From Methanolobus sediminis (GTDB lineage Archaea > Halobacteriota > Methanosarcinia > Methanosarcinales > Methanosarcinaceae), in assembly GCF_031312595.1 (NCBI RefSeq), contig NZ_CP133592.1, positions 1,736,001 through 1,800,000 of the forward strand: 64,000 nucleotides of DNA, given 5' to 3'. Both the position numbers and the translations under genes were made by a program. This document shows, one piece after another, positions 56,035 to 56,548 of this stretch. Positions within the stretch are counted from its first letter, which is position 1, and each line of letters begins with the position of its first letter. Under the pieces are notes generated by a model. The model worked only from the letters and a program-made list of their open reading frames with translations. It did not search any database and was not told where the DNA came from.

Positions 56035-56173
56035 TTTCAATTTGGATTCTCCAATATGTATGGTAATGATTTGCGAATAATGCTCAAATGTTAATTAACA
56101 ATGCTATGTTAAATTCATACAAGTTTGGTTTATATGTGAAACGTCTAATAGTATATATTGGGAGTGACTTACC

Positions 56174-56257
56174 GAAGTAAGTACAAGTTTCAATCTATAA
56201 ACTATCAACCAACCAGTTAAATTGAAGCAAAGTCATAATAACCCTTGTACTTACTTC
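56174..56257. repeat. 14-bp perfect inverted repeat with nested stem, upstream of cofE
   Basis: GAAGTAAGTACAAG (56174-56187) pairs with CTTGTACTTACTTC (56244-56257). Within the 56-nt loop TTCAAT (56189-56194) pairs with ATTGAA (56221-56226). The left arm can also pair with bases just outside it: ACTTAC-CGAA-GTAAGT (56167-56182). The two folds exclude each other. Confidence 0.6.
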
Positions 56258-56381
56258 ATTTACCATCACAAAATGGTCTAAAAGTCGTTTTCCTTAATTA
56301 ATATCTTTTGTTCATTAAATATGTAGCATTGATGCCCTTGAATTAATTCTCTATTATTTATTTGTCAGCGAAAAGTAATAT

Positions 56382-56390
56382 ACTATATTT
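56382..56390 (+). promoter_or_regulatory. TATA box of the C/D box sRNA
   Basis: ACTATATTT centred about 19-24 bp upstream of the first stem base of the sRNA, consistent with archaeal promoter spacing. Confidence 0.5.
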
Positions 56391-56403
56391 GCATTGTACT
56401 TTT

Positions 56404-56469
56404 TTGCGGCGATGATGATAGTTACCCCGACTGAGCAAAGGATGATGATATTTCTGACTGATGCCGCAA
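56404..56469 (+). ncRNA. C/D box sRNA (2'-O-methylation guide)
   Basis: All elements are present in order. Terminal stem TTGCGGCG (56404-56411) pairs with TGCCGCAA (56462-56469). Box C is ATGATGA (56412-56418), followed by a 12-nt guide (56419-56430). Box D' is CTGA (56431-56434). A 4-nt spacer leads to box C' AGGATGA (56439-56445, one mismatch), then a 12-nt guide (56446-56457) and box D CTGA (56458-56461). Both guides have the 12-nt spacing typical of archaeal C/D RNPs. The first guide TAGTTACCCCGA is complementary to UCGGGGUAACUA, whose UAACUA is the conserved loop of 23S rRNA helix 69; the fifth base from box D' would direct methylation of a G just 5' of that loop. The second target is not identified. 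C' may alternatively be ATGATGA at 56442. Confidence 0.85.
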
Positions 56470-56504
56470 TCTAAAATAATCGAATAAAAAAGAATACCAA
56501 AGGG

Positions 56505-56535
56505 GTAATAAAAAAGGAAGTCCGAATGGTCGGAC
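56505..56535 (-). terminator. Intrinsic terminator of the Hsp20 gene
   Basis: GTCCGA-ATGG-TCGGAC (56520-56535), 13 bp after the stop; on the minus strand it is followed by TTCCTTTTTTATT. Confidence 0.75.
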
Positions 56536-56548
56536 ATGAAGTAAAACT

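Follow-up and report, generated by a model that had tools for sequence, protein, structure and literature searches.

The window, by which we mean the whole 64,000-nucleotide stretch of DNA analysed here, contains a 508-bp gap between annotatable ORFs (positions 56041-56548) whose neighbours, cofE (F420-0:gamma-glutamyl ligase, PF01996) and hsp20 (PF00011), are both encoded on the minus strand. This gap houses a complete archaeal C/D box sRNA on the plus strand at 56404-56469, with the layout 5'-TTGCGGCG-ATGATGA-TAGTTACCCCGA-CTGA-GCAAAGG-ATGATGA-TATTTCTGA-CTGA-TGCCGCAA-3'. The two arms of a terminal stem, TTGCGGCG at 56404-56411 and TGCCGCAA at 56462-56469, pair over 8 bp, including one G-U pair, and enclose in succession box C (ATGATGA, 56412-56418), the D' guide TAGTTACCCCGA (56419-56430), box D' (CTGA, 56431-56434), the D'-C' spacer GCAAAGG (56435-56441), box C' (ATGATGA, 56442-56448), the D spacer TATTTCTGA (56449-56457) and box D (CTGA, 56458-56461), all on the plus strand. 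All four boxes occur in order and fit the consensus for C (RUGAUGA), D', C' and D (CUGA). A preliminary description of this DNA, made from the sequence alone, had proposed a complete C/D box RNA with an 8-bp terminal stem in a 508-bp gap; every element of that proposal is in place, and the gap corresponds to the ORF-free interval. The same description had allotted 12 nt to the D guide, the first three letters of which belong to box C'; with C' read as the canonical ATGATGA, a length of 9 nt rather than 12 is probable for the D spacer.

The architecture, defined in our search as all boxes in order together with at least five stem pairs, occurs once in the window and in none of 300 windows generated by a first-order Markov model. 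A looser C-D'-C' pattern was found at three places in the whole genome and nowhere in the reversed control, and the sRNA itself is single-copy. Another C-D'-C'-like motif of the genome, ATGATGAGAAATCACATCTGATCTGTGATGA, is located at G000:C1:509614-509644 on the minus strand. Upstream of the sRNA, a putative BRE/TATA promoter element, AAAGTAATATACTATATTT, is recognizable by sequence at 56372-56390 on the plus strand, and a gaaaagtaatatactatattt block is present upstream in many genomes of the genus. A conserved TATA-like sequence, AAGTAATATACTATATTT, lies approximately 15-30 bp upstream of the stem, in agreement with the TATA box earlier ascribed to this RNA, which we regard as putative; the sRNA would be transcribed singly, from its own promoter. 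The same gap also contains an imperfect long hairpin at 56174-56257, with the arms GAAGTAAGTACAAG and CTTGTACTTACTTC and the inner segments TTTCAAT/ATTGAAG. The hairpin (-22.2 kcal/mol, z = -3.1 against shuffled sequences) is single-copy in the genome, its region is alignable only in the closest relatives, and it could be an extended minus-strand cofE leader or another small RNA.

Archaeal C/D box sRNAs are approximately 50-70 nt long, possess a terminal stem closing the C/D k-turn, and carry an antisense element of about 10 nt beside box D or D'. The RNA described here has the boxes, the k-turn-closing stem and a D' antisense element, and genes for fibrillarin (286.7 bits) and Nop5 (194.5 bits) lie adjacent to one another on the same contig, at about 1.576 Mb. 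At the Rfam gathering threshold the window yields only a tRNA. When matches with E up to 10 were considered, the locus returned sub-threshold C/D families only, among them RF01152 (sR1) at 27.9 bits and RF00095 (snoPyro_CD) at 24.4 bits. The Rfam search that had been suggested for this locus thus supplied C/D snoRNA matches and no family at its gathering cut-off, the best reaching 27.9 of 45 bits. The boxes and general layout of both families match those of the Methanolobus sRNA, whereas the guides differ; since the scores are well below the 45-bit cut-offs that apply to both, the sRNA is a member of neither.

The genome contains four 23S rRNA genes, and CGGGGGTAACTATGACCC is present in 4/4. 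In each of the four 23S copies the D' guide matches the helix-69 sequence GGGGUAACUA in an unbroken run of 10 Watson-Crick pairs, through guide positions -3 to -12 (56419-56428), leaving unpaired the two guide nucleotides that adjoin box D'. The preliminary description had reported helix-69 complementarity over 12 nt and had looked to a match of 10-12 bp when the guides were aligned with the organism's own rRNAs and tRNAs. The complementarity stands, at 10 bp in 23S; the 12-nt target that had been named, UCGGGGUAACUA, is not present, and because the organism's own 23S reads CGGGGGUAACUA at this site, the pairing extends over 10 nt and not 12. Helix 69 is the best site for this guide in 16S and 23S, the runner-up offering 7 bp. 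Among shuffled D' guides, 5/200 reach a 10-bp Watson-Crick match somewhere in 16S or 23S, and when G-U pairs are allowed the test is not significant (47/200). The complementarity alone is therefore only moderately significant, and the case rests on position and conservation rather than on pairing alone. Covariation between guide and target is not demonstrable here because helix 69 is nearly invariant.

Ten base pairs is the optimum for archaeal particles, which methylate the target at the fifth nucleotide upstream of box D or D' (PMC7089733). In this pairing the N+5 rule singles out the G that corresponds to E. coli 1909, at position 5 of CGGGGGUAACUA and two nucleotides 5' of U1911, the first U of UAACUA. 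The predicted 2'-O-methyl G lies at the top of the helix-69 stem of 23S rRNA, in accord with the earlier prediction of a methylated G just 5' of the loop. The predicted site coincides with Gm1950 (E. coli 1909) of Haloarcula marismortui, a modification that has been measured and assigned to fibrillarin and an sRNA (PMC2584109). Helix 69 belongs to a bridge between the ribosomal subunits and makes contact with tRNAs (PMC2584109, PMC4644070).

The distribution of the sRNA extends well beyond the genus. A 73-nt query detected it in 36 of 37 Methanosarcinaceae genomes, the sole miss being a genome that is 80% complete, and it is present in 10 genera of the family as well as outside it. In nearly all genus genomes examined it is flanked by cofE and hsp20, and in more distant genomes it is far better kept than either gene; in the distant member L073, for example, the sRNA is 92% identical while the flanking cofE and hsp20 are down to 67-69%. 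Across 26 aligned genus genomes boxes C, D' and D and the guide core AGTTACCCC show zero variation, C' varies in one genome, and the D'-C' spacer is mostly kept; box D' is degenerate in some relatives. Within the D' guide (positions -1 to -12) variation among these genomes is confined to -2 and -12, the pattern to be anticipated were the guide read over only some 10 nt, in keeping with the 10-nt pairing limit (PMC7089733). The core AGTTACCCC comprises nine helix-69-pairing bases, and it is invariant throughout the genus and throughout 110 genomes of a phylum-wide sample.

These 110 genomes, out of 393 in the phylum sample, contain the pattern C box-AGTTACNCC-NN-CTGA with exact spacing, and the reversed control gave none. 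The pattern occurs in named genomes of Methanolobus, Methanosarcina, Methanohalophilus, Methanoculleus and Methanoregula, and also of Methanocorpusculum, Methanocaldococcus, Methanothermococcus and Haloquadratum; in its strict form it was not found in the sister families sampled from the order and class. Named Methanolobus records share near-identical copies of the sRNA, which points to Methanolobus or a close relative as the source of the window. In the archaeal matches the pattern is followed by C' and D boxes, and a terminal stem is present. Bacterial matches, lacking C' and D boxes, were rejected as chance. In distant archaeal homologues the letters of the terminal stem change while pairing is kept, as in GCGGC/GCCGC, in GCGUC/GACGC of Methanocaldococcus and in GGUGGC/GCCACC of Haloquadratum.

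Taken with the enzyme genes, these properties lead us to assign a probability of roughly 0.93 to the reading that the locus encodes the Methanolobus-type orthologue of an archaeal C/D box sRNA guiding 2'-O-methylation of the helix-69 stem G (E. coli 1909) of 23S rRNA. The RNA would fold into a C/D k-turn and an internal C'/D' motif, both of which, judging from the family and from the presence of the fibrillarin and Nop5 genes, would bind L7Ae, Nop5 and fibrillarin. By sequence the D' guide pairs over 10 nt with GGGGUAACUA, whereupon fibrillarin would, by the N+5 rule, methylate the G of the rRNA that faces guide nucleotide five, counted upstream from box D'. Three C/D sRNAs were detected by dRNA-seq in Methanolobus psychrophilus, where fibrillarin, Nop5 and L7Ae are expressed as well (PMC5378194).

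The D side of the RNA differs from the D' side. Its spacer exists in 12 distinct versions in the 26 genus genomes (mean entropy 0.56 bit per site), and the spacers of different genera show no relation to one another. Its complementarity to the organism's own 16S and 23S is no better than that of shuffled sequences, the organism's tRNAs contain no match, and a search over own 16S, 23S, operon spacers and tRNAs gave no convincing match, consistent with the earlier statement that no target could be named for the D guide. An 8-nt match in the 16S-tRNA-Ala spacer was taken as chance, since it is lost in the guides of relatives. Since the D spacer changes even inside the genus and lacks a credible 16S, 23S or tRNA target, the RNA is most likely a one-sided guide in Methanosarcinaceae, and the D half, needed for particle architecture, would most likely no longer direct methylation in this family.

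Outside the family the D spacer has other contents. Methanomicrobiales homologues (L086, L095, L109, L152 and others) differ from Methanosarcinaceae in sharing a conserved GCAGGG in this position, and there is a 7-8-bp match to UCCCUGCU of 16S, just upstream of the ACACACCGCCCGU segment. On the strength of this conservation and of the short possible 16S match, a second target may exist in Methanomicrobiales, which we offer as a lead only. The Methanococcales homologues L113, L114, L121 and L162 have a different D spacer in common, UCGGCACUGU or close variants, with no exact match in the 16S or 23S of the window organism; it would be another lineage-specific second guide. To the fuller proposal, in which the D' half in Methanosarcinaceae has been frozen over about 10 nt against helix 69 and the D half has kept its boxes and lost its guide while other archaeal orders retain conserved lineage-specific sequences in the D slot, we give an even chance.

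The sRNA could instead be a dual guide, in which both spacers direct methylation and the D guide acts on some rRNA, tRNA or other RNA. Many archaeal C/D sRNAs are dual (PMC7994747), the D box and stem of this one are invariant, and the GCAGGG of Methanomicrobiales, with its short 16S match, suggests that the D half may guide there. Within Methanosarcinaceae, however, the drift of the spacer through 12 versions in 26 genomes, its complete dissimilarity between genera, rRNA matches on a par with shuffles and the lack of a tRNA match make this reading unlikely. We consider it very improbable that the molecule is a regulatory small RNA directed at mRNA, or an RNA chaperone, that merely resembles a guide. 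Non-rRNA targets and chaperone roles have been discussed for archaeal C/D sRNAs (PMC7994747, PMC4644070), yet the conserved nucleotides are here exactly the boxes, the stem and the nine nucleotides that pair with helix 69, spaced so that a known Gm falls at N+5, and the RNA has no second conserved guide by which two strands of rRNA could be joined. A chance likeness, a pseudogene or a repeat is scarcely credible, for although the C and D boxes are short and 5/200 shuffles equal the D'-guide match, the RNA is conserved across 10 genera of the family and also outside it, syntenic, single-copy and unmatched in 300 random windows.

A C/D guide has been predicted in Haloferax volcanii for Gm1934 (equivalent to Gm1950 and to E. 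coli 1909), and homologous sequences are reported there for 25 archaeal genomes (Grosjean et al. 2008, PMC2584109); among the open texts searched, it is named in PMC2584109 alone. It belongs to the same RNA class and addresses the same target nucleotide as the Methanolobus sRNA, the probable orthology of the two being deduced from the common target site. Pyrococcus sR41 is a C/D sRNA proposed for the equivalent G (PMC2584109); sR41 is absent among the Rfam matches listed for the locus at E up to 10. In yeast, the C/D RNA snR63 also directs methylation of helix 69, at 25S Am2256 (PMC8307265), but at another nucleotide. Homology of the two sites was rejected, since by the shared pseudouridines yeast 2256 corresponds to E. 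coli 1913 and not 1909; E. coli 1909 is equated with yeast A2252 in the table of PMC2584109.

The sRNA is not a new kind of RNA. The preliminary description had called it new, a claim that does not hold: a paper of 2008 (PMC2584109) already described both the Gm at E. coli 1909 and a C/D guide for it that has homologues in 25 archaeal genomes, and because a guide for the same site was then predicted in Haloferax, the present RNA is probably no new guide and is best viewed as a local orthologue of a known archaeal guide. The picture of how C/D RNAs work is unchanged. Should the two-part history proposed above be true, this RNA would illustrate cleanly how each half of a dual-guide RNP can evolve independently of the other. 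Archaeal guides are commonly portrayed as evolving fast (PMC7994747); the helix-69 Gm guide ranks with the better conserved of the C/D guides in methanogens, and one diagnostic pattern (C box, AGTTACCCC, NN, CTGA) detects the sRNA in several orders. The analysis adds a housekeeping RNA gene that lacks annotation and escapes Rfam at its standard thresholds, a real but unremarkable small RNA gene of methanogenic archaea whose product most likely directs one methyl mark onto helix 69, a functional hairpin of the ribosome.
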